Below are positions 1 through 13,512 of a stretch of DNA of 37,889 nt, one piece after another. Within the stretch, counting starts at the first letter, position 1. Each line of letters opens with the position of its first letter. The stretch is from Oscillospiraceae bacterium (GTDB taxonomy: Bacteria; Bacillota; Clostridia; Oscillospirales; Ruminococcaceae), in contig WQYC01000026.1 in assembly GCA_009781425.1 (NCBI GenBank), positions 1-37,889 of the forward strand, written 5' to 3'. The notes under the pieces were generated by a model that had not been told where the DNA came from, searched no databases, and saw only the letters and a program-made list of their open reading frames with translations. A program made the translations under genes and the position numbers.

Positions 1-1
1 A

Positions 2-29
2 CCCGCTTTCACTTCTCCGAAGTGTCGGG
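2..29. other. Hairpin at left edge, possible element transfer or terminator structure
   Basis: The arms CACTTC (10-15) and GAAGTG (19-24) face each other across a 3-base loop, and CCCG (2-5) and CGGG (26-29) can extend the stem. It lies just downstream of the minus-strand gene ending at 46. In elements of this type a relaxase gene and its transfer origin often follow the DUF3847-like gene, so an oriT arm is conceivable. No U-tract supports a terminator. The role is a guess because the window ends here. Confidence 0.3.
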
Positions 30-45
30 AGAACCCGAACCCCTG

Positions 46-405
46 CTACTGTTGCGATTCCGCACTTTTATTTCTTCTCTTTTTCAGTTTTGAGAAGTAA
101 TCAAGCGGAATAATTTCCTCACCACGATTTATATAAATCGTCAGCAGTTTCATAATCACGGCGGGTTCGACACCGTAAAAATAAATCGAAGCGTTTTCGT
201 CACCCTCGTAGTTGAAAACTCTGCTGTGCGTGAGGATTTTTTCTTTCAGACGGATAGCCTGTTTACTCTGTGTAGTTTCACCGATTATTTTCTCACTTGC
301 GATAAAAAAATCGAGTGCAGTCATCAGCGTATTAAATAATTCGTGCGGGAGATATAATTCTGTGTCGGGTTTATTCCTCGTCATTTTCTGTGTCATTTTC
401 GTCAC
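46..405 (-). CDS. Hypothetical mobile-element protein
   Basis: This 119-residue protein is of no family I recognise. It has no signal peptide or membrane segment, a middle part predicted to be helical, and a basic C-terminus (LKKRRNKS). The start overlaps the end of the DUF3847-like gene by 35 bases in another frame, so the two are probably translated together. It sits after the recombinase and DUF3847-like genes in the same direction, a position where integrative elements of Clostridia usually carry small accessory genes before the relaxase. The function is unknown. The coding call rests on the compact arrangement and open frame. An in-frame ATG four codons further in is an alternative start. 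Confidence 0.6.
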   Translation of the reverse strand: MTKMTQKMTRNKPDTELYLPHELFNTLMTALDFFIASEKIIGETTQSKQAIRLKEKILTHSRVFNYEGDENASIYFYGVEPAVIMKLLTIYINRGEEIIPLDYFSKLKKRRNKSAESQQ

Positions 406-685
406 CTCCCTCCGTCAAAATACCACCCTGCATTTCTGCGGGTGGTGGTGCAAGTTTTATTTCGGGGAATGTGATTTTATCCATGTATTTCTCATATTCC
501 GTTTCCGACATTCCCGAAATATGCGGGGCTATTTTTTCGAGATACACACCCCGATTAAACAGCCGTTGCTTTTTAGCTTTTTCGGCTTCTGCCTTTTGCT
601 TTTGAAGAAGTTTCCTCTGCTCGTTTTTTAGTTTCTGCATTTGCTCGTTCTTGTCAATGATTTGTTGCTCTAATGATTTTGCCAT
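371..685 (-). CDS. DUF3847-like mobile-element protein
   Basis: A 104-residue protein. Residues 1-45 form a charged coiled-coil-like helix rich in K, E and Q (LEQQIIDKNEQMQKLKNEQ). It is followed by a KKQRLFNRGVYLEKIAP segment that resembles the conserved core of DUF3847 proteins (helical N-terminus, then R-(L/K)-x-N-x-G-x-x-x-E). The C-terminus is acidic (GGDENDTENDEE). In the family, such proteins sit next to relaxase genes in integrative and mobilizable elements. The gene starts 18 bases after the recombinase stop codon. A role in mobilization is inferred from context only, and the family match is from memory of the pattern, so it is moderate. Confidence 0.6.
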   Translation of the reverse strand: MAKSLEQQIIDKNEQMQKLKNEQRKLLQKQKAEAEKAKKQRLFNRGVYLEKIAPHISGMSETEYEKYMDKITFPEIKLAPPPAEMQGGILTEGGDENDTENDEE

Positions 686-703
686 AGTAATGTCCTCACT
701 TTC

Positions 704-1729
704 TTAAATATGATTTTTGTTGTATTTGTTGTAATAGAAAAGCGGCTCACGATTTTTACAAATCATAATCCAATCCTTTTGTGCCGACTTTTTATTGCAA
801 CCTTTCCGTTTCTTTGCCGTCACGCATTTATAATAGCGATGGACTTTCATCGTGCGACTTGTACCGCTTTCCCCAACCATAAACGCTCCACATTTTCCGC
901 ATAAAAGCTTAGTTGTTAGAAGATAGTCGTCCTCTGCTTTAAACCGAGCAGGGGCTTTTTTATTTTTTGCCATTTGTTCCTGTACTTGTTCAAATAAATC
1001 AAGCGGAACTAACTGCGGAACACCGCCGGGAATAATATGTGTGCTGTATTTATATTCCCCGATGTACACACGATTTTTGAACATTCTTTGAACTGCATCT
1101 ATACGAAGTGTGCCGCCTCGACAATGCCTAACACCTTTATCGGCGAGGAATTTTACAATATTAACTATTTTATCACCCTCGCTATATTTCTTAAATGCTT
1201 CAAGAATAATAGGTGAAGTCAACGGGTCAATCTGCAACTTTCTTTCTTCGTCAATCACATAACCAACAGGAAAACTTCCATTATTCCATTTACATTTAAG
1301 CGCATTTTCGGTTTGACCACGCTTGACTTTTTCGCTCAATTCGGCTGAATAAAATTCTGCATAACCCTCAAGAAGTGATTCTAAAAGTATGCCTGTTGCA
1401 TCTTCTGAAATTGGCTCGGTTGCCGAAACAACTTTAACACCGTTCTTGCGGAGAATGGCTTTATAATGTGCCGAATCGTAACGGTTTCTCGCAAATCTAT
1501 CTAATTTCCAAACTATAATCACATCGAAAAGACCTTTTGCGCTATCTTTAATCATTTTTTGAAATTGTGGACGATTATCGGTTTTTGCCGACAATGCACG
1601 GTCAATATATGTCCCAAAAATCGTCATCCCTTTTCGTTCGGCATATTCTCTCGATTCACGGATTTGCCCCTCGATACTTTCTTCCCGTTGATTATCGGAA
1701 CTATAACGACAGTATAATACAGCTTTCAT
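704..1729 (-). CDS. Large serine recombinase, C-terminally truncated
   Basis: Residues 1-140 are a resolvase/invertase catalytic domain with the nucleophile region YCRYSSDNQ (Ser10) and the conserved KLDRFARNRYDS segment (75-86). Residues about 155-250 are the recombinase DNA-binding domain. Residues 277-311 form the zinc ribbon (Cys277, Cys280, Cys302, Cys311). Intact relatives run to about 500-550 residues, with a long coiled-coil C-terminus after a KDWI-E-D motif. Here the frame leaves the family right after KDWI (318-321) and stops 20 residues later, so about 180 residues are missing. The start overlaps the XRE gene by four bases (ATGA). The truncation suggests the element can no longer integrate or excise on its own, though the catalytic domain is intact. 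Confidence 0.9.
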   Translation of the reverse strand: MKAVLYCRYSSDNQREESIEGQIRESREYAERKGMTIFGTYIDRALSAKTDNRPQFQKMIKDSAKGLFDVIIVWKLDRFARNRYDSAHYKAILRKNGVKVVSATEPISEDATGILLESLLEGYAEFYSAELSEKVKRGQTENALKCKWNNGSFPVGYVIDEERKLQIDPLTSPIILEAFKKYSEGDKIVNIVKFLADKGVRHCRGGTLRIDAVQRMFKNRVYIGEYKYSTHIIPGGVPQLVPLDLFEQVQEQMAKNKKAPARFKAEDDYLLTTKLLCGKCGAFMVGESGTSRTMKVHRYYKCVTAKKRKGCNKKSAQKDWIMICKNREPLFYYNKYNKNHI

Positions 1730-2079
1730 TCAACACCGCCTTTCATCATTTGCAACAAAGTATCTTTCAACTTACCGCTCATAGGCGAGTTCGGGTCAAA
1801 GCACATTTCGATAAACCGCTTCATGTCCTCGTTATCTTCAATCTTTGGTTTAAAATCGTACAGCTTCCCCTCGGGCTTGTCCGTTCGCCCGTATAAATAA
1901 TCGAGAGAAACATCAAACAAATCTGCATACACCAACATAGTTTTATACGAAGCTTCCGCTTGATTATTCTCATAACGATTAATCCCTGATTGAGTTAATC
2001 CAACTTTTTCTGCAAGTTCTTTTTGAGAAAGCATTGTGCCTTTCCTCAACGCTTTCATTCTTTCAGCTACAATTTTCAT
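1726..2079 (-). CDS. XRE-family helix-turn-helix regulator
   Basis: A 117-residue protein with an N-terminal Cro/C1 helix-turn-helix (about residues 5-60). The recognition part LSQKELAEKVGLTQSGINRY is followed by the DLFDVSLDYLYGRTD segment common in phage- and element-type repressors. The C-terminus is family-specific. The start was set at ATG 2079 because GGAGG lies seven bases upstream. A longer frame from 2109 would read through the promoter -10 region. The gene overlaps the recombinase start by four bases and has its own strong promoter with an inverted repeat, so it probably represses itself and controls the recombinase. Confidence 0.9.
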   Translation of the reverse strand: MKIVAERMKALRKGTMLSQKELAEKVGLTQSGINRYENNQAEASYKTMLVYADLFDVSLDYLYGRTDKPEGKLYDFKPKIEDNEDMKRFIEMCFDPNSPMSGKLKDTLLQMMKGGVE

Positions 2080-2107
2080 GTACCAACCTCCATGTTTCGA
2101 TAATAAC

Positions 2108-2149
2108 ATTATAGCCGATTATGTGGTATTTGTCAACCCTATAATCGGC
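2108..2149 (-). promoter_or_regulatory. XRE/recombinase promoter with inverted-repeat operator
   Basis: On the minus strand there is a perfect consensus promoter: -35 TTGACA (2131-2136), a 17-base spacer, and -10 TATAAT (2108-2113). A perfect 9-base inverted repeat, GCCGATTAT (2114-2122) and ATAATCGGC (2141-2149), brackets the -35 box. One arm fills the spacer directly beside the -10. Binding there would block RNA polymerase, as expected for autorepression by the XRE protein it transcribes. The promoter and repeat are seen directly; the identity of the repressor is inference. Confidence 0.85.
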
Positions 2150-2204
2150 AATATTAAATTTATTTTTCAAATACGTGCATAGCACCGAGCGAAGCGATTG
2201 CAGG

Positions 2205-2299
2205 GGTTTGGGTGCAACCCAACAAGCAAAAGCGAAGCAGTTTGACACAAAGGGTACCATTGTGTCATGCTTGCTTTTTGCAAAATGGTATCATTTTGC
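2205..2299. other. Cluster of hairpins, oriT-like
   Basis: This gap between the radical-SAM gene and the XRE gene holds three clear hairpins: TTGGGT-GCA-ACCCAA (2208-2222), GACACAA with TTGTGTC (2244-2250 and 2260-2266, 9-base loop), and GCAAAATG-GTAT-CATTTTGC (2280-2299). CAAGCA (2223-2228) and TGCTTG (2268-2273) can add an outer stem to the second. The layout resembles transfer-origin regions of mobilizable elements in Clostridia. No relaxase gene is next to it, so the oriT assignment is inference. Confidence 0.4.
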
Positions 2300-2355
2300 G
2301 TTGCTTGCTATTCTACCCAATCGCTACCGCAAAAGACAATTTTTTATTCAAGAGT

Positions 2356-3147
2356 TTAAACAGAACATATCATACAAGGTGTTTGCGTTCCATCTTTAAT
2401 ATGATAGGCAATATCATTTTCAAGGCAAAACTCAATTACTACCTCGCTTAATTCATTATAAAAAGCCTTATGCTTTTTATAGCTTGAAATCTCTTTATTA
2501 TAATTGGTTCGTCCAAAAATTATCTTATCAACGAAAGAAACCGCTTCCAGTATTTCGTTTAATTCTTGCTCAATAATATTGGGTGTAGGGTAAGGTTCAA
2601 TACTAACCCATGTTTTACACCCACGTTCATGCAATTCCCACAACCGCTTTATTCTTTCAACGTATGACACCGCACCGGGTTCTATGCGTTCTCGAAATTT
2701 TTCATCTAACGAAATTAAGGTTATGCCATATTCGTTTTCATCGGATAAGTCGGCTAATTCCAACGGAAGCAATCCTTTTGTCAGAGCTGTGCATTTAATT
2801 CCCGATTTGTTCAGCGTGGATATAATTTTAAAACTCATTTTGCATATATCATCATAACCGTACATGAATGGGTCGGTAGTGAAACATAAATGAACAGATT
2901 CTATTCTTTGTTTTAACTTCGGGATTTCTTTTTCCAAGAGTTCATGTGCGTTTGTAACAATTTTAGGTTCTATCCATTCTTCATAGGTTTTTACTTTACC
3001 AAATCGTTTAGCCAACAGGAAAGCATAGCATGGATATTTACACCCATGAGAACAGCCTTGAACATGGTTGAGCGTATAATCTCCGTACTCTACTCCGGTT
3101 TTATACAGGAGGGTTTTGCGTTCTATACAGCCAAGAGTTTTATTCAT
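2356..3147 (-). CDS. Radical-SAM-like protein with CxxxCxxxC motif (TcmP partner)
   Basis: A 263-residue protein with Cys32, Cys36 and Cys40 in the context GCSHGCKYPCYAF, a CxxxCxxxC motif instead of the usual radical-SAM CxxxCxxC. The surroundings (LNHVQGCSHGC, then FTTDPFMYGYDD, LTKGLLP, ITLISLDE, WVSIEPYPTPN) fit the barrel core of spore-photoproduct-lyase-like and phage Gp37/Gp68-like radical SAM proteins. It should bind a 4Fe-4S cluster and S-adenosylmethionine; the substrate is unknown. Its start overlaps the stop of the tcmP gene by four bases (ATGA). Family knowledge names TcmP as the standard partner of this three-Cys protein, and that pairing is seen here. It is the last gene of the five-gene operon. 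Confidence 0.85.
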   Translation of the reverse strand: MNKTLGCIERKTLLYKTGVEYGDYTLNHVQGCSHGCKYPCYAFLLAKRFGKVKTYEEWIEPKIVTNAHELLEKEIPKLKQRIESVHLCFTTDPFMYGYDDICKMSFKIISTLNKSGIKCTALTKGLLPLELADLSDENEYGITLISLDEKFRERIEPGAVSYVERIKRLWELHERGCKTWVSIEPYPTPNIIEQELNEILEAVSFVDKIIFGRTNYNKEISSYKKHKAFYNELSEVVIEFCLENDIAYHIKDGTQTPCMICSV

Positions 3148-4262
3148 ATCGCACCCCTCTTAACGAGGGTTTGCTTTGATTCTACATACCCATAAATATT
3201 TTTTAGTTCTTTCTTAATTTCGTTTCTATAACCATCAGATGGAAATATTGGGTGTTCGTCTAATACCCTCCACATATCTTCGAGAGGTATTTCCGAGTAT
3301 TCTTTGAACTTTGCATACAAATATTCTGCAATGTCTTTGACAAAATAGCAGTTTTCGTCTTTTACTGTTTTCAATTCATCAACAGAAATATCATCGCCAA
3401 CATCCAATACGAGTTGCATATTTGCATTTGCCGTTTTTGATGAAGATTTATCGCCAAATGTTTTCCAAGCAGTTGACTTAAATAACTTAAACCCTTCGAT
3501 ATTTCCACTACAATGGAGAAGATTATATATCAATGCGTTCGTTGTATTGAAAAAAGGGAATGAGGCAATGTAATATGGTTTGCTTGACGTACCACGTAAT
3601 GCAGTTATTATTTCACGAATACGCTTTTCGTAGGCACTTCTGTCATTACCAAACGTGAGTAATTCTTCGATGTTCGACAAATAGGTTTGTTCATATTTTT
3701 CTATAGCAGACTCACTTTTTGCCTGTGAAGCTCCGCGAATTGTATCAGAAACCATATGATTTATAATGACCTCCCCCCAATTGCGGAAAAACGGCAACAA
3801 TGCTTCCCACTTTACAGCAGCATGATAAGGGTCATAAATAAGCAAATAATGCAGGTTTTTCTTGAGGTCAATTTTAGAAGCAACATCTTTTAACAATTCA
3901 TTGCCGTCACCAACACGTGCTTCAATATGTAGATTGTTTGTGTTGTCAGGCAGGTGTGTTTTTAAAAGTTCTATCTTTTTGCTATCTAAATCATTAAACA
4001 ATAGCCACGCTTTTTTTGTAGGATACTTTTCCATGATTTTTGCAAAATAGTTTGCAACACGAATAGGTGTTCCAAGAATATTATTGTTATAAATACCACT
4101 GTTGCACATACAGTCGATGAATACAAGCCCGTTACACTTCGTACCCTTTAAAACCTTATGTGTCCACGCTTCCACATATTTTTCAATCAATTCAAATTTT
4201 TTAATTGTATGCGGCTTTGCCGTGTCAATTTTTATTTCTGTGGTTTTATTGATTGCCATCAT
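3144..4262 (-). CDS. tcmP: Three-Cys-motif partner protein TcmP
   Basis: A 372-residue protein. The N-terminal part (HTIKKFELIEKYVEAWTHKV, then VFIDCMCNSGIYN and GTPIRVANYF) matches the TcmP pattern of a helix followed by a Rossmann-type strand-loop that resembles the SAM-binding loop of class I methyltransferases. A second strand carries LLIYDPYHAAVKW. The activity is not established for the family. The gene overlaps the upstream DGNHR-fusion gene by 17 bases and the downstream radical-SAM gene by four. Two ATG codons (4260 and 4257) follow a G-rich site; the first is used here. Presence in a restriction-modification operon suggests a part in DNA modification or defence, which is inference. 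Confidence 0.85.
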   Translation of the reverse strand: MMAINKTTEIKIDTAKPHTIKKFELIEKYVEAWTHKVLKGTKCNGLVFIDCMCNSGIYNNNILGTPIRVANYFAKIMEKYPTKKAWLLFNDLDSKKIELLKTHLPDNTNNLHIEARVGDGNELLKDVASKIDLKKNLHYLLIYDPYHAAVKWEALLPFFRNWGEVIINHMVSDTIRGASQAKSESAIEKYEQTYLSNIEELLTFGNDRSAYEKRIREIITALRGTSSKPYYIASFPFFNTTNALIYNLLHCSGNIEGFKLFKSTAWKTFGDKSSSKTANANMQLVLDVGDDISVDELKTVKDENCYFVKDIAEYLYAKFKEYSEIPLEDMWRVLDEHPIFPSDGYRNEIKKELKNIYGYVESKQTLVKRGAI

Positions 4263-5796
4263 TCACACCCCCATTAATTCCATAAAAAGCTTTTAGTTCA
4301 CACTCAAGGTCTTGTGCTAATTTAATAACACTATTTCCATCATTCTTATAAGGAATAACTTTATAATGTTCTACATCAAATTTTGTTTCTGCGAATGGTT
4401 CGTTTGGCTTTTTGGGGTTGCTTATAAGATATAATATATTTGCAGAATCTCCTAATTTCGCCCTAATTAACCCTTGAGCAAAGCCTGCTTCGTAGTAAAC
4501 ATTCGCATTTTGGTTTGTTAAATCCGCTATTAAAAGCCCAGCACTTTCGATTTTCAAAAGAATTTCTTCTACAATATCATATGAAAATCCGACAATCTGC
4601 TTGTCAATGCGTACAGGTGCAGGCAAATCAAGCCCTTCGTTATCGTTATTTATCTTTGCAACCGCACTTACAATTGCTTCAAATACAAAATCTAAAGAAT
4701 CCATAAATGGCATAGCGACAAAAATTTGTTTTCTTCTTATTTCAAATATATTATCAAATACTCTAATAATACTCGCAGGGTCAAAATTCTTTAGTTTATA
4801 TAGTTTATTATTGATGAACCAAGTTGTGTAAGCATCCAATTTTACTTTTGGTTTATCCTCTGAAAGAGAATAATAAACATACGGCACAATCGAAAAACGA
4901 TTAGCGCATTTTTGCAATTTGCACACATCTTCAAAGTACGTGTTGTTCAGCTTTGAGAAAATTTCAGCTAATTTGTCCGCTGTAATTTCAATATTGCGGT
5001 CAAGCAAAAATTTGACACAGAAAAGCACTGCATCGTCTTTTTCTTTAAAAAATGCACTCATATTTCTTAACGGTAATTCTTCATGCCTGTTCAAATACTC
5101 TTTAGTAATGGCGAACGCCTCATCGAAATCACGCAATTCATCAACATCAAATAAGTTTAATAACCCCCTGCATTGCTCAACTTCTGTTAGAGGTTTTGCT
5201 TTGGCATTTATGTTGTGAAAAATAGTCATTTCTGATTGTTTTGCACGTTGTTCATCGGACGATTTTTCGAGCAATATGATACTAAACGGAATATTTTCCC
5301 CCTTAAATCTATGCCCCAATTCCTCAAAAGCCATTAAACGGTGGTTTCCGTCAATGCGTTTGAATGGCTTGGCGTTAAGCGTTTCGGGTAACAACATTGT
5401 TATGAAACTTGAACTTTTGTATTTTAGAAACTTGACCCCTGCTTTATCAACAAGTTCAACAGGTTTACGCGATGACTTTTCAAGTAGACTCTTAGTTAAA
5501 TAATCTATTGGTCTAAAAATCTCAAACTCCCCCGTTGCTTCCGAAAAGTCGGGATTAATTTCTTTGTCATACCAATCATTTGTTCTGTAAGCTAACGTAA
5601 CTTCGGGAGTGTAAACCGATTTCCCATCCTCGATAAACTTTTTAATGTTGTCGACGTGAACTTTGTCCTCGGTTCGTTGATACTCTCCTACAGCTTCCGA
5701 ATATTTAACTATTGTGGATGCAGGTGCGAAACCTCTAAATACATAGAAGCCATCGTAGCAACGGTCTATCGTGCCAAATATTTTTACACTTGCCAT
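4246..5796 (-). CDS. DGQHR (DndB-like) domain fused to a nucleoside deoxyribosyltransferase/TIR-like domain
   Basis: A 516-residue protein with two parts. Residues about 1-350 look like a DGQHR-domain protein of the DndB group: FKRIDGNHRLMAFEEL holds the signature as DGNHR (149-153), and FHNINAKAKPLTEVE (193-207) is the second conserved block. Residues about 355-505 form a Rossmann-like domain, starting IFVAMPFMDSLDFVF (358-372), continuing through IVEEI, and ending LLIADLTNQNANVYYEAGF (421-439). This is the pattern of nucleoside 2-deoxyribosyltransferase-like and TIR-like nucleotide-cleaving domains, with Glu436 at the catalytic position. A good ribosome site (GGGAGG) lies in the end of the specificity gene, five bases upstream. 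I infer a DNA-sensing N-terminus joined to a nucleotide-acting effector. Confidence 0.8.
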   Translation of the reverse strand: MASVKIFGTIDRCYDGFYVFRGFAPASTIVKYSEAVGEYQRTEDKVHVDNIKKFIEDGKSVYTPEVTLAYRTNDWYDKEINPDFSEATGEFEIFRPIDYLTKSLLEKSSRKPVELVDKAGVKFLKYKSSSFITMLLPETLNAKPFKRIDGNHRLMAFEELGHRFKGENIPFSIILLEKSSDEQRAKQSEMTIFHNINAKAKPLTEVEQCRGLLNLFDVDELRDFDEAFAITKEYLNRHEELPLRNMSAFFKEKDDAVLFCVKFLLDRNIEITADKLAEIFSKLNNTYFEDVCKLQKCANRFSIVPYVYYSLSEDKPKVKLDAYTTWFINNKLYKLKNFDPASIIRVFDNIFEIRRKQIFVAMPFMDSLDFVFEAIVSAVAKINNDNEGLDLPAPVRIDKQIVGFSYDIVEEILLKIESAGLLIADLTNQNANVYYEAGFAQGLIRAKLGDSANILYLISNPKKPNEPFAETKFDVEHYKVIPYKNDGNSVIKLAQDLECELKAFYGINGGVNDGNQ

Positions 5797-5801
5797 TATT
5801 T

Positions 5802-7163
5802 TCAGCCTCCCAACAGTTCCTTTTCAAACCTTTCTTTTGCGTTCGCCCATTCTGTTTCAGCTTCATGTTTGAGTGTTAAAGCTTTTTCTCGACGTTTTTT
5901 TACCTCGCAAACGATAAAATTTTGTGTTTCTGTCGATAAAAAAGGTAACTTTAAATTTAACATATCCTCACGATTCAAACGATAACGGCTTGGAGTAGAG
6001 CCGCGAGTTTTTGAATACATAAGTTCCTTAAAATATGTTGTCCTTATAACCCACATAAGCGCAGTAGGGGAACAGTTTTCTTTACATCGAAGCACCAAAA
6101 ATTCCGCTGAAGCCAATGTTCTGCGATATGTTTCATTAACAACAACAACTTTTTGATTTAATATAGTTGGTCCTAATCGCGCGACAAGAACATCGCCAGT
6201 TTCGACGACGAAAAAAGACCCCTCCATTTCGCTTGCAAATAAAGTGCGGACTTCTCCAATTTCCCAAGGTTTATTAGATAAATCGTCAATTCGTATCCAA
6301 TCGACAATTTCTTCATTTAGATTTTTAACATTTACCTTGTTTTCAATAATATTGCAATAACTTATGATTTTAGCCATGTTTTCATTTATGCTTACACTCT
6401 GATAACGCTTTGCACTTATGACACCATCTAAGTTTTTATATTTTATTGCAAAGCATATTTTATTCACTTTGTTTTTTGAGGGTAAACCTATCAATTCCGA
6501 AACAAACCCGTCTATCCCCTCAAGCAACTCATCAGCTTTGCAGAGTTTTTCATTATATTTTTTCAGAGCAATAGACATTTCGGTTGCAAGGCGTGTTTGT
6601 GTTTCTCTTGATGGTAGAACTACTTCGAGAGATTTGTATTCTTCTTTGTTGATGTTGGGTTGCCCCGACGGACGTTGTGATTTGCGAACCCACTCTGCGT
6701 ACTTTTGTGTTTTTGTATACCAATATACATATTCGGGTATAGCTTTCGTAGGGTCAATTACAAATCGAATACAGTACCCTGCAAAAACAGCTAACCCTAA
6801 TGTTTTTTTGTGTTGATATGTTTTGCCAACTGTCGCTCCACTTCGTGCAAACAAAATGTCGTTGTCGTTCAAAACGTGTTTAGGCAAATAATCGGCAACG
6901 GTTGTAAATGTATGCTTTTCTTCTATTCCGTTGTCGGAAAAGTCGGTAATGCGTATATATTTGGGTTGTGATTTGTCGGTTCGCTCTATTGCGGTTGCTG
7001 ATATGCCATAATCGGCTTCACGCAAGCACAACGACCCCAACGAAACGCTACCTATTGTTTCATTTTCAATGGGTTTAGGTAAATTATATCTTACATCAAA
7101 CCTTTTCCCTATCTCCCCCGACTTAACCGCAAATACACATAGTTCATCTGCGGCGGGGGTCAT
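5802..7163 (-). CDS. hsdS: Type I-like restriction-modification specificity subunit (HsdS)
   Basis: A 453-residue protein with two target-recognition domains and two helical spacers. TRD1 covers about residues 30-190 and holds YIRITDFSDNG, ILFARSGATVGKTY and the typical SGQPNINKEEYKSLEVVLPS end. A helical spacer follows (about 190-230). TRD2 covers about 240-420 (WIRIDDLSNK, GDVLVARLGPT, TPSRYRLNREDMLNLKLPF), then a C-terminal helix. Two different TRDs imply a split, asymmetric recognition sequence that cannot be read from the protein. The gene begins within the stop of the methyltransferase gene (ATGA overlap) and should form a complex with it. The length is normal for HsdS. Confidence 0.93.
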   Translation of the reverse strand: MTPAADELCVFAVKSGEIGKRFDVRYNLPKPIENETIGSVSLGSLCLREADYGISATAIERTDKSQPKYIRITDFSDNGIEEKHTFTTVADYLPKHVLNDNDILFARSGATVGKTYQHKKTLGLAVFAGYCIRFVIDPTKAIPEYVYWYTKTQKYAEWVRKSQRPSGQPNINKEEYKSLEVVLPSRETQTRLATEMSIALKKYNEKLCKADELLEGIDGFVSELIGLPSKNKVNKICFAIKYKNLDGVISAKRYQSVSINENMAKIISYCNIIENKVNVKNLNEEIVDWIRIDDLSNKPWEIGEVRTLFASEMEGSFFVVETGDVLVARLGPTILNQKVVVVNETYRRTLASAEFLVLRCKENCSPTALMWVIRTTYFKELMYSKTRGSTPSRYRLNREDMLNLKLPFLSTETQNFIVCEVKKRREKALTLKHEAETEWANAKERFEKELLGG

Positions 7164-8980
7164 ACAAAAAAAGGTTTTGGATTCCTTTGAAACTCCTCGA
7201 ACTGTTTTACAACTTCGGGTAACTGCGAGTTGTCATTTTCACGCCCCGTTGCGTCATATCCTATATTTTCGGGAGCTGCCATAAAGATTGTTTCATAATC
7301 ACTCGCCACTTCGTTATCGCCCCTTTTGCGAACGAATATAACTGAGGCTTTAACTCCTGCACCAAAATGAGCAAATGCGGCTTGTGGTAAACTTACAACG
7401 GCAAGCAGTTGAAACTTTTCAAGGACAAAATCACGAACATATTGCATACTGCTATTAGTCAATATGCCGTCGGGCAAAACAATTGCCGCCCGTCCTGTGT
7501 CAGATTTTAAAAATTCCCATATACGCTCAATAAAAAGGACTTCGGAGCTTTGATTTTTACGAACTTTAGCTTTTCCTTTTTTATCGTAAGTATTACCAAG
7601 TTCAAATGAGCCGAGATAAGGACGTTCAGCGGCATTTATTTGAGAACCAAATGGCGGATTAGTCAATATTAAATCAAACTTATTACGGGCAAATCCACGA
7701 TTTTGTGCGGTCATTTTCTCAATATTTTCGAGAGCATCAAAGCTAATAACATTCGTGTGTCCGTCATCATGAACAATCATATTCATTTTAGCAACACGAG
7801 CAATTTCATCGTTAATTTCTATGCCGAATAATCGTTTTTCAGCAAAATCATGCCAATATTTATAATGTTCTTTTGTATCTCTATCGGCGTATTCATCGGC
7901 TTGCTTGCGTATACAATCCAAAGCATACAAAAGAAAGCCACCCGAACCACACGAAGTATCGAGAACAAAATCGTCTTTATCGGGCTTCAGCATATCAATT
8001 GAAAATTCTATGATAGGGCGAGGTGTGAAGTATTGTCCGAAATCACCTTTGAAAAAGCTATCCATAAACCTTTCAAATGCAACTCCTTTAACGTCAAGGT
8101 CGGTTTTATTAAGATTGGTGCTTTCAAGATGGGAAACAACAGTACGCAGAACCCGGTCATCAACTTTAATTGATTCGGTAAAAACTTCGGGGTCGCGTTT
8201 CTTTTGCTCATCATATAATTTGTTTATTCTTTTCGCAAGCGAAGAAGAAGGTTCGTATGTTTTAAGTTGAAACTCGTAAGGTTCACCTTTTTTTCGAGGT
8301 TTTTGCTCATCGCTTATTTTTACGAAGATTAACTTGCATAATTCGCCGAACGCTGTGGGTGGCGATAAACGTCCGCCACCCCAAAGAGTTTGGTGGCATT
8401 TTTTTATGGTAGAAATAAGGTCTTCTCGCGATACAGGTTGAATATCGTTATGTTTATCACCTTTATAAAATCGAAATTCTTGCGGTTTACCGTATGCTTT
8501 AGGAAGGTCAGCAAGAATATTAATATCGCGTTCCATTGCCCCATATTTATCAGAAACATCAAGAACACGACGAGTTGCACCTGCAACAATCAAAACATAA
8601 TCTGCACGAAGTTTTACCCAAGTTGCATTACCCACTCCCTGTTCGATAGCTTGGTTGAACTCTGCATCAGAAACACCTTCCTTTTTGCACTCAACCACAG
8701 CGAAAGGTCGTTTACAAGCATCATCGCGAAATATAACAATGTCTGCTCTATCCGTCGGTAAACGGTCGGGGATAGTAACTTCTATTTTTATACGGTTTGC
8801 AGGATATTCATAATGATATATGAGTTCTGCCCACACCTCTGCACGGACTTTTTCCTCCGGGTCATCAAAACGTTCGCTATGATTGGCGGCAGAAACATAT
8901 GTAATTTTTTGTTTACCCTCTATACCTGTTATGTGAGCATAACCATCTTTGATTGCCTGTTTTAAATATAACATAGACAT
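7160..8980 (-). CDS. N6-adenine DNA methyltransferase with N-terminal nuclease-like domain (BcgI-like or HsdM)
   Basis: A 606-residue protein. Residues 1-140 resemble the HsdR N-terminal/PD-(D/E)XK fold: Glu52, Asp80 in RADIVIF, Glu97-Cys-Lys99 in VVECKKE, then QAIEQGVGNA. Residues about 190-600 are an HsdM-type methyltransferase: motif X GQYFTPR (315-321), motif I DTSCGSGGF (341-349) and motif IV NPPF (441-444). A cleavage domain and a methylase in one chain with a separate specificity subunit is the layout of type IIB BcgI (A and B subunits); no helicase-type HsdR is present. The first ATG has AGGAG five bases upstream. The gene opens the five-gene operon. Whether the nuclease domain cuts DNA is not shown by the sequence. 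Confidence 0.9.
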   Translation of the reverse strand: MSMLYLKQAIKDGYAHITGIEGKQKITYVSAANHSERFDDPEEKVRAEVWAELIYHYEYPANRIKIEVTIPDRLPTDRADIVIFRDDACKRPFAVVECKKEGVSDAEFNQAIEQGVGNATWVKLRADYVLIVAGATRRVLDVSDKYGAMERDINILADLPKAYGKPQEFRFYKGDKHNDIQPVSREDLISTIKKCHQTLWGGGRLSPPTAFGELCKLIFVKISDEQKPRKKGEPYEFQLKTYEPSSSLAKRINKLYDEQKKRDPEVFTESIKVDDRVLRTVVSHLESTNLNKTDLDVKGVAFERFMDSFFKGDFGQYFTPRPIIEFSIDMLKPDKDDFVLDTSCGSGGFLLYALDCIRKQADEYADRDTKEHYKYWHDFAEKRLFGIEINDEIARVAKMNMIVHDDGHTNVISFDALENIEKMTAQNRGFARNKFDLILTNPPFGSQINAAERPYLGSFELGNTYDKKGKAKVRKNQSSEVLFIERIWEFLKSDTGRAAIVLPDGILTNSSMQYVRDFVLEKFQLLAVVSLPQAAFAHFGAGVKASVIFVRKRGDNEVASDYETIFMAAPENIGYDATGRENDNSQLPEVVKQFEEFQRNPKPFFV

Positions 8981-9147
8981 TGAATCTCCTATAATATTAT
9001 TTTCGCAAACCGAAGTTTCTTGTTTAGTTTATACGGTTCATCAATACAAAAATGCTACCAAAAATGTAAATTTAAATCATTAAATTTTACTTCTTTGGTT
9101 ATCATTTTTACTTTGAATTTGTATGTTAATATGTTTTGACTTGTCTA

Positions 9148-9176
9148 ATTATACCAAATATTGCGATAAAAGTCAA
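9148..9176 (-). promoter_or_regulatory. Promoter of the methyltransferase-to-radical-SAM operon
   Basis: On the minus strand TTGACT (9171-9176), a 17-base spacer and TATAAT (9148-9153) make a near-consensus promoter. Transcription would start near 9141, leaving a leader of about 160 bases before the ATG at 8980. The leader is AT-rich and holds an imperfect inverted repeat near 9066-9090. I see no other promoter between the five genes. Confidence 0.8.
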
Positions 9177-9211
9177 CGAAAATTTTAAAACATATAAATA
9201 TGAGAGCCAAG

Positions 9212-9298
9212 GGTATCATGGGTATCAAGAGTATCATATTAGCAAAACCCATATATAGGTTTTTTTGGTAAAATCCCAATAATATCCCAATTTTGGGA
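9212..9298. repeat. Tandem 9-base repeats and palindromes between divergent promoters
   Basis: The 366-base gap 8981-9346 has no gene. Between its two divergent promoters lie three 9-base tandem units, GGTATCATG, GGTATCAAG and AGTATCATA (9212-9238). Next is a weak hairpin AAAACC...GGTTTT with a T-run (about 9245-9267). Then come two copies of ATCCCAAT (9273-9280 and 9284-9291), the second in a palindrome TCCCAA-TT-TTGGGA (9285-9298). They sit just upstream of the rightward -35 box. They look like operators or iterons; no binding protein can be named. Confidence 0.6.
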
Positions 9299-9303
9299 AA
9301 TGC

Positions 9304-9332
9304 TTGACAAATCGCATTTTATGTGTTATAAT
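9304..9332 (+). promoter_or_regulatory. Promoter of the small element ORF
   Basis: TTGACA (9304-9309), a 17-base spacer and TATAAT (9327-9332) form a perfect consensus promoter reading right. AGGAGG follows at 9342-9347, about ten bases after the -10. The palindrome at 9285-9298 ends five bases before the -35, so a bound regulator would touch RNA polymerase. Confidence 0.85.
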
Positions 9333-9346
9333 GATGAACATAGGAG

Positions 9347-9523
9347 GTGGTCGTTGCGAGAGAAGCAGTCAACATAATAACCGAAATCCCCACCGAAGCC
9401 ATAGAATCACTGGCGAGGTGTTTATTACCGGAAATACAAAAATATTTTGAAAGCGAAGAAGGTAAAAGGGAATTCGAGGAATGGAAACTTAAAAATGCTA
9501 ATCAAGCCGCACAAGCGGCGTAA
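9347..9523 (+). CDS. Small conserved mobile-element ORF, start degraded
   Basis: The frame reads about 58 residues from GTG 9347 (VVAREAVNIITEIPTEAIES, then a LARCLLPEIQKYFESEEGK block, ending QAAQAA). From memory, short proteins with this AREAV-x-IIT-x-IP core are common in clostridial integrative elements, where they usually begin TTG-GC(A/G)-AGA. Here the TTG at 9354 is out of frame by one base. The only in-frame initiator, GTG 9347, overlaps the ribosome site itself. A one-base loss at the start is likely, so expression is doubtful despite the excellent promoter. The function is unknown. The nearby terminator hairpin supports a real transcription unit. Confidence 0.5.
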   Translation: MVVAREAVNIITEIPTEAIESLARCLLPEIQKYFESEEGKREFEEWKLKNANQAAQAA

Positions 9524-9531
9524 TAGATATA

Positions 9532-9559
9532 GCGGACGGGAGCAAAGGCTTCCGTCCGC
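9532..9559 (+). terminator. Terminator-like hairpin after the small ORF
   Basis: A 12-base stem, GCGGACGGGAGC with GCTTCCGTCCGC (one G-U pair), closes on a 4-base loop. It lies nine bases after the small ORF stop and is followed by a T-rich but not pure T stretch. It probably ends that transcript. Confidence 0.65.
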
Positions 9560-9643
9560 CACTATTATTTTATACAGGGTAGCGGTATTTTACCGTTGCC
9601 TTTCTTTTTGGAATTAAAGTTCGGATATTTTATATAAAGCATA

Positions 9644-9690
9644 AATCCGAACGCTTCCCCAATAATTTTCAATTCGGGGTGGTTCGGATT
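9644..9690 (-). terminator. Hairpin downstream of tRNA-Leu
   Basis: AATCCGAAC (9644-9652) and GTTCGGATT (9682-9690) pair perfectly, with an inner CCCC/GGGG pair. The tRNA 3' end is 13 bases away on the minus strand, and the sequence beyond the hairpin on that strand is AT-rich. A further copy of GTTCGGAT lies at 9619-9626. It may end the tRNA transcript. It is also close to where the mobile element should stop, so a junction repeat is possible. Confidence 0.45.
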
Positions 9691-9702
9691 ATATACTTTA
9701 CC

Positions 9703-9786
9703 TGCGGCTGAGAGGACTTGAACCTCCACCCGATTGACTCGGACCGGCACCTGAAGCCGGCGCGTCTGCCATTCCGCCACAACCGC
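9703..9786 (-). tRNA. tRNA-Leu (anticodon CAG)
   Basis: An 84-base cloverleaf can be drawn. The acceptor stem is GCGGTTG with CAGCCGC and discriminator A. The D arm is GGCGGAATGGCAGAC. The anticodon stem is CCGGC/GCCGG with loop TTCAGGT, giving CAG. There is a long variable arm (CCGAGTCAATCGG) and a T arm GGAGG-TTCAAGT-CCTCT. The long variable arm and G73-equivalent A fit leucine. CCA is not encoded. Confidence 0.93.
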
Positions 9787-9913
9787 ATTTGATATTTTCG
9801 TCTGCACGACCCTTGTATTTCTGGCAGACATTTTCGTAAAATTTGAAATCTCGTTTCTCGTGTAACCCGCATAAATACAGGGTTTTAGGGGCTTTCGCCC
9901 GAAAATGCGCGTT

Positions 9914-9955
9914 AGTACCTGAACCGTACGTGTCTGCCAATTCCACCATATCCGC
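9914..9955 (-). pseudogene. 5' half of a second tRNA-Leu
   Basis: On the minus strand the sequence runs GCGGATA, then a normal class II D arm GTGGAATTGGCAGAC and the anticodon region GTACGGTTCAGGTAC. After this it stops resembling a tRNA. The anticodon stem cannot close, no T arm with TTCRA follows, and no TATCCGC acceptor end is found before the intact tRNA-Leu. A GGGC-GAAA-GCCC hairpin (about 9888-9899) replaces the variable arm. It looks like a tRNA broken at the anticodon arm. Confidence 0.7.
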
Positions 9956-9963
9956 GAATTATT

Positions 9964-10359
9964 TTATTTTACGAAAGCTTCCAAAGCCTCGGCTACCGCT
10001 TCTCTGTCTAAATACTGCTCGTTGTGGACGTTTTCAACTGCGAAAAACGGCGTAATAACAAGCAAAATCCAGATAATTATTCCCGCGGCGTTAAGCGCGA
10101 TTGCGAGCCTGCGCTTGCTTTTTACTGCAAGCGGCAAGCCGATTATACCGAAAATAATCATAAAATATACAGCGATTGAATCCAATAAGCCTGCGAGAAA
10201 CACCGAAAAAATCGTCAGTACAGGCGTAAGCATACATATACCAAGGAAAACGCCCGCCTTGTAAAACCGCGGAATCATTACGTGCGCGGTGTTCGCTTCG
10301 CAGTGCTCGCACTCTAAAGCCGCTTCGTCAATTTTCAAACCGCATTTGTAGCAATACAT
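9964..10359 (-). CDS. Zinc-ribbon membrane protein
   Basis: A 131-residue protein. An N-terminal zinc ribbon has Cys3, Cys6, Cys17 and Cys20 (YCYKCGLKID...CEHCE). Three hydrophobic membrane spans follow (about 33-58, 60-78 and 85-106), then a short polar C-terminus. Proteins of this kind (zinc-ribbon domain plus small membrane part) are common in Firmicutes and have no assigned reaction. GGAG lies nine bases before the ATG. The gene has its own promoter and ends nine bases before the broken tRNA-Leu. Confidence 0.8.
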   Translation of the reverse strand: MYCYKCGLKIDEAALECEHCEANTAHVMIPRFYKAGVFLGICMLTPVLTIFSVFLAGLLDSIAVYFMIIFGIIGLPLAVKSKRRLAIALNAAGIIIWILLVITPFFAVENVHNEQYLDREAVAEALEAFVK

Positions 10360-10383
10360 CGCATAACTCCAATCAACTCTAAA

Positions 10384-10412
10384 AGTATAGCATAAAGTTT
10401 GCGGGTTGTCAA
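10384..10412 (-). promoter_or_regulatory. Promoter of the zinc-ribbon membrane protein
   Basis: On the minus strand TTGACA (10407-10412), a 17-base spacer and TATACT (10384-10389) lie about 25 bases before the gene start. Confidence 0.8.
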
Positions 10413-10464
10413 TAAAAATATTTTTTATTATTTTTCATATTTCGACATTATTTATGGAAAATTA

Positions 10465-10473
10465 TGGTATAAT
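10465..10473 (+). promoter_or_regulatory. Extended -10 promoter of the metalloprotease gene
   Basis: TGG-TATAAT (10465-10473) is an extended -10 element about 56 bases before the ATG at 10529. No good -35 box is seen at 16-18 bases, which is usual for extended -10 promoters. Confidence 0.6.
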
Positions 10474-10528
10474 AGACTTACATGAAGCATATGCAGTTTG
10501 TGAAAAATTAAAAAAGGATGGTAAAAAC

Positions 10529-11176
10529 ATGAAGAAGTTCAGAAAAATCATATCCTGCGTTATGGCGTGCATTATATTGCTTAGCGCAGGAATGATACAG
10601 GCAAGCTCATGTACAAATTCATACCACACAGGGACTGTTTGGTATAGCGGAACAAATCTTAGGATAGGGGTTAATTCAAGCGCAATGAACTCCATACTTA
10701 CGTTCAATGTTTACAACAGCGTTACCACAAGTGGAGGATGGAACAACCTTCACACACCGGCGAGGATACACATATCTAATGTTATACATTTAGGTGCGGC
10801 ACCATCCGCTACTCGGGATATTGATGTTGTAGCATGGTATTACGGCTCAAGTAATAAGTTAGGAGAAGTAGTGCCTTATGACAGTTTTGGCAATGTCACG
10901 GGTGAATGGGGTAATTGGAGTAGTGCAGTAATTCGCATGACCGATTGTACGAGCATTTGGGGTGACGGAGGTGTATCTGCTACTATACGAACAGAGCGTG
11001 CCAGAAAAACATTTATTCATGAAGTGGGTCATGTTTTTAGGCTGTCACATCCGAATTGTAGCAATATATCCGGTCCATTAGCAGTGATGAGACAGGAAGC
11101 TGCAGATTTGAGCGCAACAACATCTGCAACGGTAGTAACGCACGATGAAAACAATATAGCAGCAAGGTGGAGGTGA
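10529..11176 (+). CDS. Secreted metzincin-like zinc metalloprotease
   Basis: A 215-residue protein. Residues 1-27 are a signal peptide (basic MKKFRK, hydrophobic core, cleavage near MIQA-SS). The zinc motif HEVGHVFRLSH (164-174) matches HExxHxxxxxH of matrixin/metzincin peptidases, and Met187 in AVMRQE fits the Met-turn. The part between is a small secreted domain of no family I can name. The start was taken at 10529 because AAGGATGG precedes it and the signal peptide begins there; an upstream frame from 10406 would put a non-signal leader in front. The next gene begins five bases after the stop, so protease and lipoprotein are one operon. Confidence 0.82.
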   Translation: MKKFRKIISCVMACIILLSAGMIQASSCTNSYHTGTVWYSGTNLRIGVNSSAMNSILTFNVYNSVTTSGGWNNLHTPARIHISNVIHLGAAPSATRDIDVVAWYYGSSNKLGEVVPYDSFGNVTGEWGNWSSAVIRMTDCTSIWGDGGVSATIRTERARKTFIHEVGHVFRLSHPNCSNISGPLAVMRQEAADLSATTSATVVTHDENNIAARWR

Positions 11177-11181
11177 CAGAA

Positions 11182-12108
11182 ATGAAAAAAATAATAATTA
11201 TAAGTATATTAATATTCGCGTTATTTTTGACAGCTTGCTCAAATACAGAAACTCTCTCAGATACAATTGCCGGTACATTTGAAATCACGGAAGTTATTTC
11301 TACTTCCGGAATGGCAAGCAGAATAGTTTATAACTCATTACAAAAGTTATTAGAGCCGGCAAATTGGGGCGCGGGAGTTCTTGAAGATTACAGCGCAGAC
11401 ATAGCAGTTATCGGTGAATTTATAGAAGATGCAAATGCCGGATTTCGTTATGAATACAATGAACATTTTGGGAAAGATGTTGTGGTTGACGCTTTTGCAA
11501 GAGGGCAGTTTCTTGTAACTGAAGTATTACACGGGGATATCAAAAGCGGAGAAATTATTACTATAATTCAACGTTATGCTTTTGACGAAGAACGCAAAGC
11601 ATTAATTTCATTCAGCGAATTAACCCCCATGCACAAAGGCGACGGCTGGATTTATTTTTTAAACCGCAATGGAGATGTATACGATGTTGTATCAGAGGCT
11701 GACGGCAGATATCCCATTCCCGATAAAGAGCTGACACAATTCATTAATGAAGTTTCGTCGATAATGAACGCAATAGAAGAATGGGCACACAGCAAAGAGC
11801 AAGTCGAAAGTATAGCAAGCGACAAAGAAGAGTGGAGATACTACAGAGATAGACAAGGTAGCCTTTATCGCTTTACGGAAGAAGAAGCAGAAGAATTAGA
11901 TGATTTTTCTATTGCAATTCATGACCTTTTGGAAAAGATTGACGCTTCCGCGTTAGGCGTAATTAATCGCTACGATTTTAATTATATCATATATTCTGAA
12001 ATTATTGAGTATTTTAAAATTGAAACGCGGGACTGGGTGAATCCGGGACGAGAATTTGACGCAAAAATAATTGAAATTTTTGAAAAGCAATTTAAAGAGT
12101 TTTCATAA
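11182..12108 (+). CDS. Lipoprotein of unknown function
   Basis: A 308-residue protein with a type II signal peptide; the lipobox LTAC puts the lipidated cysteine at residue 19. The core has alternating strands, including a VTEVLHGDIKSGEIITI segment seen in many uncharacterised clostridial lipoproteins, and a charged helical C-terminal third. GGAGGTGA precedes ATG 11182 by seven bases. It is translated right after the metzincin-like protease, so it may act with, localise or inhibit that enzyme at the cell surface. This is inference from the operon alone. A perfect hairpin terminator follows. Confidence 0.8.
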   Translation: MKKIIIISILIFALFLTACSNTETLSDTIAGTFEITEVISTSGMASRIVYNSLQKLLEPANWGAGVLEDYSADIAVIGEFIEDANAGFRYEYNEHFGKDVVVDAFARGQFLVTEVLHGDIKSGEIITIIQRYAFDEERKALISFSELTPMHKGDGWIYFLNRNGDVYDVVSEADGRYPIPDKELTQFINEVSSIMNAIEEWAHSKEQVESIASDKEEWRYYRDRQGSLYRFTEEEAEELDDFSIAIHDLLEKIDASALGVINRYDFNYIIYSEIIEYFKIETRDWVNPGREFDAKIIEIFEKQFKEFS

Positions 12109-12113
12109 AACAA

Positions 12114-12148
12114 ATCAAAACCTCCGCGCATTGCGCGGAGGTTTTGAT
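12114..12148. terminator. Bidirectional terminator
   Basis: Perfect 16-base arms (12114-12129 and 12133-12148) with a GC-rich core CCTCCGCGC and a three-base loop are flanked by A and T runs on both sides. It serves the rightward lipoprotein gene and the leftward SpoIID gene, which converge here. Confidence 0.93.
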
Positions 12149-12152
12149 TTTC

Positions 12153-13496: not shown

Positions 13497-13512
13497 AAAA
13501 ATTTAACCTCTA

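Follow-up and report, generated by a model that had tools for sequence, protein, structure and literature searches.

A methyltransferase, a specificity subunit and a DGQHR/NDT-like protein as a probable restriction-type defence system with an exchangeable tail

Restriction enzymes of type IIB, such as BsaXI and BcgI, cut twice, on either side of a bipartite site, combine nuclease and methylase in one polypeptide chain and carry specificity in another, and we know of none that has a third subunit. Proteins of the DGQHR-domain family, DndB among them, are recognised instead by a list of motifs comprising a QR pair, an FxxxN motif and the DGQHR pentapeptide (PMC4619093, in the part of the source available). 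Features of both are found together in a locus of an Oscillospiraceae bacterium (assembly GCA_009781425.1), located on contig WQYC01000026.1 within a stretch of 37,889 nucleotides that is referred to here as the window. Five neighbouring genes of the window encode a fused nuclease-methyltransferase (M), an HsdS-like specificity subunit (S), a protein with a DGQHR/DndB-like and a nucleoside-deoxyribosyltransferase-like (NDT-like) domain (D), a three-Cys-motif partner protein or TcmP (T) and a radical-SAM protein (R). Comparison across genomes reveals that D is closely linked to M and S, and suggests that these three genes probably constitute a restriction-type defence system not previously described, behind which lies an exchangeable tail occupied in the window by T and R. 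The five genes are as follows.

7160..8980, minus strand: M, nuclease-methyltransferase, 606 amino acids, with Pfam matches HSDR_N_2 (3.2e-13) and N6_Mtase (1.3e-38)
5802..7163, minus strand: S, HsdS-like specificity subunit, 453 amino acids, with matches to Methylase_S (1.3e-8) and PADLOC Specificity_I (1.1e-29)
4246..5796, minus strand: D, putative DGQHR/DndB-like domain (DGNHR, QR, FxxxN) followed by an NDT-like domain with E436, 516 amino acids, from motifs and profile comparison
3144..4262, minus strand: T, TcmP, 372 amino acids, matching TIGR04474 at 97.3 bits (cut-off 53)
2356..3147, minus strand: R, radical-SAM protein with a CX3CX3C motif, 263 amino acids, matching Radical_SAM (1.7e-9)

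An earlier note, made from the sequence of the window, had described five genes reading in one direction with very tight junctions, and the coordinates of the open reading frames (ORFs) bear out this arrangement: M and S overlap by 4 bases, S and D are separated by 5, D and T overlap by 17 and T and R by 4. The overlap of D and T shortens to 14 bases if T begins at its second ATG, as the 371-amino-acid record P0121 would. The same note had read M and S as a restriction-modification-like pair, and here too the evidence agrees. Nuclease and methyltransferase domains lie in the single chain M, adjoined by S with its Methylase_S domain, and among solved chains RM.BsaXI lies closest to M (E 1.1e-37, over M residues 157-560). 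The N-terminus of M carries D80, E97 and K99, which we read from the motif as a PD-(D/E)XK nuclease, while the N6-adenine methyltransferase domain carries N441-P-P-F444; among 58 aligned M proteins, that of the window included, these are conserved in 55/58 (D80), 55/58 (E97), 56/58 (K99) and 58/58 (NPPF) sequences.

Central to the present analysis is the finding that D is encoded beside M and S far beyond the genome in which it was first noticed. A D alignment of 35 proteins (A1) was searched against one genome per species, 84,980 species in all, and 80 of the 112 matches were kept, corresponding to 79 loci. Of these, 61 were counted (L002-L061 and L068) as matching the DGNHR part of D or, in the case of L024, as being cut by a contig end, and 18 were set aside as matching D in its C-terminal part alone; 11 of the 61 run out of sequence within 1.5 kb. 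In 58/61 loci D has an M homologue on its own strand no more than 6 kb away, in the order M-S-D in 44 (two with a split M) and M-D-S in 14, and one or two extra ORFs stand between S and D or between M and D in six of the M-S-D loci (L003, L005, L015, L017, L021, L032). The three loci that have no M comprise two contig fragments (L024 and L031) and one odd locus (L002). A gene for S was assigned in all 58 M-bearing loci, although ten of these genes were too divergent for a single-sequence search and were assigned only in a second round, by a profile built from the remaining S. The 18 loci set aside, whose match covers the C-terminal part of D alone, served as an internal control and gave no match to M or S.

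Linkage is accompanied by co-inheritance. Across 55 members, the window included, the pairwise identities of M and D correlate with a Mantel r of 0.74, a value reached in 0/2000 permutations, and since the catalytic motifs are also retained, the trio appears to be both active and inherited together. Record titles place M-bearing loci in Clostridia, in alpha-, beta- and gammaproteobacteria, and in Bacteroidota, Campylobacter, Thermotoga, Spirochaetales, Lentisphaeria, Desulfobacterales and Balneolaceae, among others; one metagenome-assembled genome recorded as Rickettsia typhi (L046) probably carries the wrong name. As judged from gene content and order, M-S-D travels as a three-gene unit across many bacterial groups.

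Searches of plasmid and viral sequences allow the boundaries of the association to be considered. Among six plasmid relatives of M (E 1e-60 or better), the closest, from Leisingera, is 49% identical and holds the sole plasmid match to D, and the other five, at 30-34% identity, are found without D; more distant relatives of M therefore live without it. A search with the M alignment returned two viral loci, one in which M is followed by D (L233) and one (L232) in which an M 78% identical is followed by S, the sequence ending 281 bases past S. Of eight other viral loci, seven show neither M nor S; the eighth (L081, left uncounted) is arranged like L002. In L002 (4135-12584), and likewise in L081, a relative 54% identical to the D of the window follows HsdS with no match to M. 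The HsdS ORF of L002 carries N-terminal domains of sigma-70 regions 2 and 4, and upstream lie a 1016-amino-acid ORF with an RdRP domain and an ORF of 280 amino acids; this locus may represent a phage inserted in the trio or a genuine fusion of sigma domains with HsdS.

The same distribution bears on a second way of reading D, namely as a guardian of M and S, comparable to PrrC beside a type I enzyme, that would stay silent while these work and would kill or stall the cell once a phage antirestriction protein disables them. Guardianship would fit the presence of D together with M and S in 58/61 of the loci in which it is found, its position between the two in 14 of them, and the plasmid relatives of M that lack D, as expected of an add-on. 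To our knowledge, known guardians are optional and are not co-inherited as tightly as M and D, the identities of which correlate as described above, and D itself gives no PrrC-like match in Pfam or NCBIfam. While both PrrC and PARIS have been described as guardians of restriction (PMC12707154, in the part available), we consider a role of this kind for D unlikely.

As for D itself, the earlier note had proposed that this protein fuses a DGQHR domain to an NDT domain; both names are based on motifs and profile comparison and do not reach curated thresholds. Specifically, D scores 44.4 bits against the DGQHR model TIGR03187 (cut-off 58.85) and 17.5 bits against the DndB model PF14072 (cut-off 29.1), a search of its own genome with PF05014, the NDT model, does not recover it, and two matches in PADLOC are weak (E 0.02-0.04). 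At the level of motifs, the pentapeptide D149 G150 N151 H152 R153 is present in 57/57 aligned D proteins, that of the window included, with N in place of Q throughout, and is joined by the QR pair in at least 56/57 and by FxxxN in 57/57. In the C-terminal domain E436 is likewise invariant (57/57). Pairwise hhalign comparisons, made without a background library, scored this domain at a probability of 99.6 against three NDT-like proteins, of which L192 exceeds the PF05014 cut-off, and of 83 against six canonical NDTs; in the same comparisons E436 aligns with the Glu of the NDT-like proteins. A CAP12-type TIR was tried as a candidate for the C-terminus and set aside at a probability of 15.

Glutamate is the nucleophile of NDT enzymes (Glu98, by way of a reference cited in PMC3710099), and DUF4062, a related family, works as an NADase in phage defence (PMC13174449), both as given in the available part of these sources. 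Given the NDT-like match, the alignment of E436 with this Glu and the NADase activity of DUF4062, the likeliest role for D is that of an N-glycosidase-type effector.

Two other interpretations of D are touched by these data. The first is that D is a DndB-like regulator of the expression or activity of M and S, in which the NDT-like domain merely senses a ligand, the whole being an ordinary type IIB-like enzyme with its controller. Consistent with such a role are the intact nuclease and methylase motifs of M and the precedent of DndB, a DGQHR protein that acts as a transcription regulator in Salmonella (PMC4507180, in part). A pure sensor, however, would not need E436, which is invariant and aligned with the Glu of NDT-like proteins, and no operator-like palindrome clearly stands out before M, where 15 imperfect inverted pairs were found; a regulatory role is thus not favoured, and we hold it to be about as improbable as guardianship. 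According to the second interpretation, D acts upon DNA itself, its NDT-like domain removing or exchanging bases at sites chosen by M and S. Characterised NDT enzymes take free nucleosides as their substrates, which argues against an action on DNA, as does the NADase activity of the related DUF4062 domain. In its favour, an NDT domain fused to abortive-infection domains has been proposed to be a base-removing DNA toxin (PMC3710099, in part); on balance this interpretation appears decidedly unlikely.

What follows the trio varies from host to host. The region behind the core was analysed in the 50 loci where the sequence continues for 1.5 kb or more, and was empty in 18/50, with no same-strand gene of at least 100 amino acids within 100 bases, and filled in 32/50. 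Of these 32 first genes, 20 were scanned with Pfam, five (L008, L009, L011, L014, L035) were placed by BLAST cluster and sequence, and seven have no assignment. Ten of the 50 loci carry a type IV-like restriction gene in first position after the core: Mrr in L002, L006, L009, L055 and L061, GmrSD in L007, L008 and L011, and an McrB-like AAA ATPase with an McrC gene behind it in L010 and L014. One of these ten, L002, has no M, and L003, outside the ten, carries GmrSD as the second gene. Other occupants include SIR2 (L005), a CoiA-like nuclease (L019), FokI/Mrr (L038) and T5orf172 (L057), and more. Similar cores may bear different tails, as D proteins 85% identical are followed by Mrr in L006 and by GmrSD in L008, and D of L008 is 83% identical to that of L055, which again has Mrr. 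In the window the slot is occupied by TcmP and R, and this is the case in 0/61 of the D loci.

The idea, advanced in the earlier note, that such tight coupling makes the five genes one system is accordingly difficult to maintain, and a conserved five-gene operon was rejected as a candidate on this count. The note had asked whether relatives of the last three genes stand beside the methyltransferase elsewhere: D does so, in 58/61 loci, and TcmP and R do not. A single M-S-D-TcmP-R system would account for the 17-base overlap that couples D to T, and the European Nucleotide Archive (ENA) records a relative of D (P0005) and one of R (P0243) each from a single contig, 10,529 bases long in both cases and probably one and the same, a hint that D stands linked to R in at least one further place; among the 120 TcmP records listed of 1550, none came from a contig of that length. 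Against a five-part system stand the absence of TcmP and R from every D locus, the 18/50 loci that have room behind the core and no gene there, the occurrence of TcmP-R elsewhere beside other types of restriction genes or beside none, and the distribution among 398 genomes of the phylum, where TcmP is found in seven, D, matched across its DGNHR part, in three (G000, G116 and, weakly, G325), and the two together in the genome of the window alone. Of the interpretations considered here, a five-part system is the least probable. Also unsupported as a dedicated mechanism is the further proposal that TcmP and the radical-SAM protein make or repair a modification that gates D, since the pair separates from M-S-D and recurs elsewhere.

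TcmP and the radical-SAM protein form a pair of their own. The score of T against TIGR04474 is well above the cut-off; in PADLOC, T matches PDC-M30A (9.6e-16) and also PDC-M41A, and R weakly matches PDC-M41B (1.8e-5) and PDC-M30B (1.8e-4), from which PDC-M30 and PDC-M41 may be taken to be TcmP and radical-SAM pairs. The canonical radical-SAM cluster motif is CX3CX2C, and 20/21 aligned R proteins have CX3CX3C. Several relatives of R bear the name 'DNA repair photolyase' in one source, as annotation, and a sequence search of solved structures with R gave chance matches only. In T, FIDCMCNSG and DPY resemble methyltransferase motifs I and IV; other TcmP read YIDAFAGSG or YVDCFAGKG at the first of these.

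The neighbourhood of TcmP of the window's type was surveyed in 35 loci from viral contigs and genomes (L115-L136, L153-L160, L227-L231), of which 17 have a restriction or modification neighbour. These neighbours are GmrSD in L115 and L117, HindIII with a DUF1156 methylase in L116 and L118, type III genes in L122, L124-L128, L133, L228 and L230 (with AIPR in three cases), and type I genes in L132 and, by an HsdM-like match beside two unscanned ORFs, in L231; L159 and L160, whose TcmP are 100% identical and which count as a single case, have a convergent HsdS only. The type III genes of L230 lie ahead of TcmP, the partner of which is DUF5131. No restriction neighbour was found in 12/35 loci, in a screen that used proteins of kinds already seen and left two of the twelve (L135 and L136) unscreened, and 6/35 end at the pair itself (L119-L121, L123, L131, L227). 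When 23 of the 35 loci were grouped by TcmP at 80% identity, 10 of 17 groups outside the window had a restriction neighbour. The restriction enzyme may differ beside nearly the same TcmP, as in L115 (GmrSD) and L118 (HindIII), where TcmP is 91% identical. No TcmP was found in plasmid records, and in annotated phages it was found in one record, which has no annotation. A table of S. meliloti genes places the TcmP gene SMa2243 beside SMa2245, the phage-defence gene Hna (PMC12445080, in part).

A scan of viral sequences with R extended this picture. Of 31 loci, 11 lay on contigs already in the set and one had no R ORF, leaving 19 additional loci; a restriction or modification gene is the neighbour in 3/19 (L236, L251, L259), and others adjoin recombinase, integrase or ImmA-like genes. 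In the ten of these loci in which the ORFs upstream of R were scanned, all ten encode a TcmP above the TIGR04474 cut-off, of other subfamilies. The pair is thus constant, and its tie to restriction genes is strong for TcmP of the window's type and loose overall.

Several additional observations concern the pair. The vicinity of integrase and recombinase genes is a usual place for phage-borne accessory genes, and on the viral contigs L252, L255 and L263 a gene for an integrase or a serine recombinase comes after the TcmP-R pair. In L122, L125-L127 and L228, all within type III operons, TcmP and R have between them another, divergent TcmP-like gene of 286-313 amino acids. Finally, one in-frame TAG is present in each TcmP of L139-L142 and L145 (G458, G476, G504, G501 and G502, of one genus), which may be either broken copies or genes of a phage in which TAG is a sense codon.

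The following features of the window surround the five genes.

9702..9787, minus strand: tRNA-Leu (CAG), where synteny with a genome of the same genus ends
9148..9176, minus strand: promoter-like site TTGACT-17-TATAAT before M, from a consensus scan, matching 11/12 positions
1726..2109, minus strand: XRE-type regulator, as read from the sequence, downstream of R
704..1729, minus strand: serine recombinase, only 341 amino acids long, with Resolvase (4e-32) and Recombinase (2.5e-13) domains, downstream of R

The guanine-plus-cytosine (GC) fraction of the five genes is 0.35-0.39, as against 0.45-0.48 to the right of position 9964. G747, the best-matching of 31 genomes of the same genus, is syntenic with the window from the tRNA-Leu rightwards, and the 13.5 kb to the left of its tRNA-Leu match nothing in the window, the five genes being missing at that site. 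Because GC differs from the flank and synteny stops at the tRNA-Leu, the region of the cassette looks foreign, and because the window begins at base 1 of the contig, the left end of this region lies beyond it. The XRE-type regulator and serine recombinase are probably genes of a mobile element. A repeat of the 3' end of the tRNA-Leu was sought in the window, yielding just a 12-base match, and a scan of positions 1-14000 for RNA families found the tRNA-Leu alone.

The one strong promoter that had been proposed corresponds to the site listed above, 168 bases upstream of M. Sites of this kind are common here, however, numbering 36 on both strands of 2100-9700 against 27.4 +/- 5.0 in shuffled sequence, and the site is best regarded as a consensus match that is no evidence of function; a shared transcript is presumed. 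Elsewhere in the region, three 12-base near-repeats (CAAGGGTATCAT) with 9-base spacing lie at 9208-9237, upstream of this site. A perfect TTGACA-17-TATAAT match within 9304-9559 on the plus strand points away from the cassette and is followed by an ORF of 58 amino acids (9347-9523) and a terminator-like hairpin, and a second perfect match (2136-2108, minus strand) lies directly upstream of the XRE-type and serine recombinase genes.

Taken together, linkage, co-inheritance, conserved motifs and modularity lead us to favour, at a probability of roughly 0.37, a reading in which two modules share one transcript: M-S-D as a self-standing restriction-type defence, and TcmP-R as a portable accessory. 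M and S would read a bipartite DNA site, methylate the host copies at adenine, and cut or engage unmethylated copies, as type IIB enzymes like BsaXI do. D would be a third subunit, whose DndB/ParB-like DGNHR domain may serve as a nucleotide- or DNA-dependent switch and whose NDT-like domain, by way of E436, may hydrolyse a nucleotide, either NAD+ or a (deoxy)nucleotide. Triggered when M-S meets unmethylated or protected foreign DNA, D would add a cell-level defence to DNA cleavage; that methylation state gates the fusion effector, as the earlier note put forward, is kept here as a hypothesis. TcmP and the radical-SAM protein would then be a portable defence accessory in the variable slot behind M-S-D, most likely altering nucleic-acid or nucleotide chemistry so as to keep restriction effective against modified phage DNA or to spare the host.

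A number of observations weigh against this two-module reading. As M has an intact nuclease motif of its own, restriction needs no second effector, and in the Dnd system DndB acts as a regulator of transcription (PMC4507180, in part). D falls under the curated cut-offs for DGQHR, DndB and NDT alike, and sequence searches of solved structures with D and with T gave chance matches only. That T is a class-I methyltransferase is not claimed, as its hhalign comparison with RsmD gave a probability of 2, which is not significant. The loci were selected by D, so that M-S without D was barely sampled, by way of the six plasmid records and two viral loci, and the five plasmid relatives of M that lack D come from that sample. 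Lastly, the TcmP loci that have no restriction neighbour or end at the pair, and the viral loci in which R adjoins recombinase, integrase or ImmA-like genes and only 3/19 times a restriction or modification gene, speak against a general tie of the accessory to restriction.

A bolder form of the two-module reading may be outlined, which we regard as doubtful, albeit less so than the rival roles for D. Here a phylum-crossing M-S-D complex that reads methylation would directly switch on a nucleotide-destroying NDT-like effector, thereby uniting restriction-modification with abortive infection, and would offer an add-on slot for type IV enzymes or for a mobile TcmP/radical-SAM accessory applying radical chemistry to modified DNA. 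Were these ideas to be true, annotation as an 'incomplete' restriction system beside a hypothetical protein would be hiding a three-gene defence system of many phyla; the reading of DNA methylation would be tied to an N-glycosidase effector, a link undescribed in the literature matches listed; and the unexplained TcmP/radical-SAM pair would gain a testable context with restriction enzymes and phage, and not just alone.

How, then, does this locus stand beside the systems already described? In agreement with the earlier note, the five-part arrangement has no named match in the libraries or, among the matches listed, in the titles and abstracts of the open-access literature; among the same matches, neither a methylase-HsdS-DGQHR/NDT system nor TcmP as a defence accessory is described. 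M and S bear a likeness to the methylation-associated defence system (MADS), M scoring 321 bits against MAD2 and S scoring 63 bits against MAD5; mad2 and mad5 are also the sole MADS models among the best 25 of 66 PADLOC rows for M and the best 25 of 81 for S. Both scores, however, are far under the curated cut-offs (720 and 400, respectively), none of D, T and R hits a MADS model in PADLOC, and identity with MADS was therefore rejected. Type I systems differ in their HsdR translocase, for which a Pfam scan found no gene among the five of the window. In the wider set, ORFs of at least 850 amino acids lie within 4 kb of the core in 16/61 loci; an HsdR N-domain was present in 0/4 of the large core-strand ORFs scanned (L002, L003, L010, L041), one of which has a PLD-type ResIII helicase, the scan leaving out others such as those of L013 (1144 amino acids) and L018 (914 amino acids).

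Individual components also have counterparts. The candidate pairs PDC-M30 and PDC-M41 of PADLOC share their matches with T and R, and differ in that the pair of the window is joined to M-S-D. In other hosts the place behind the core can be taken by GmrSD, McrBC or Mrr, although TcmP and R match none of these families. The Swarozyc (DUF4062) TIR-like/NDT-like effectors are related through an N-glycosidase superfamily in which a Glu is conserved (PMC13174449, in part) and yet form a different family, fused to a phage-portal sensor where the domain of D is fused to a DndB-like one. With the Dnd and Dpd systems (DndB, DpdB), D appears to have in common the QR pair, FxxxN and, for DGQHR, DGNHR; it departs from them in the N that replaces Q in 57/57 sequences, in its NDT-like fusion, and in its company, genes for methylation by M and S standing in place of those for sulfur or deazaguanine. 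The type IIB enzymes BsaXI and BcgI share the fused nuclease-methyltransferase chain and the separate specificity chain, and the locus is set apart from them by D, the linked third gene encoded with M and S in 58/61 loci, which argues against plain membership of that type.

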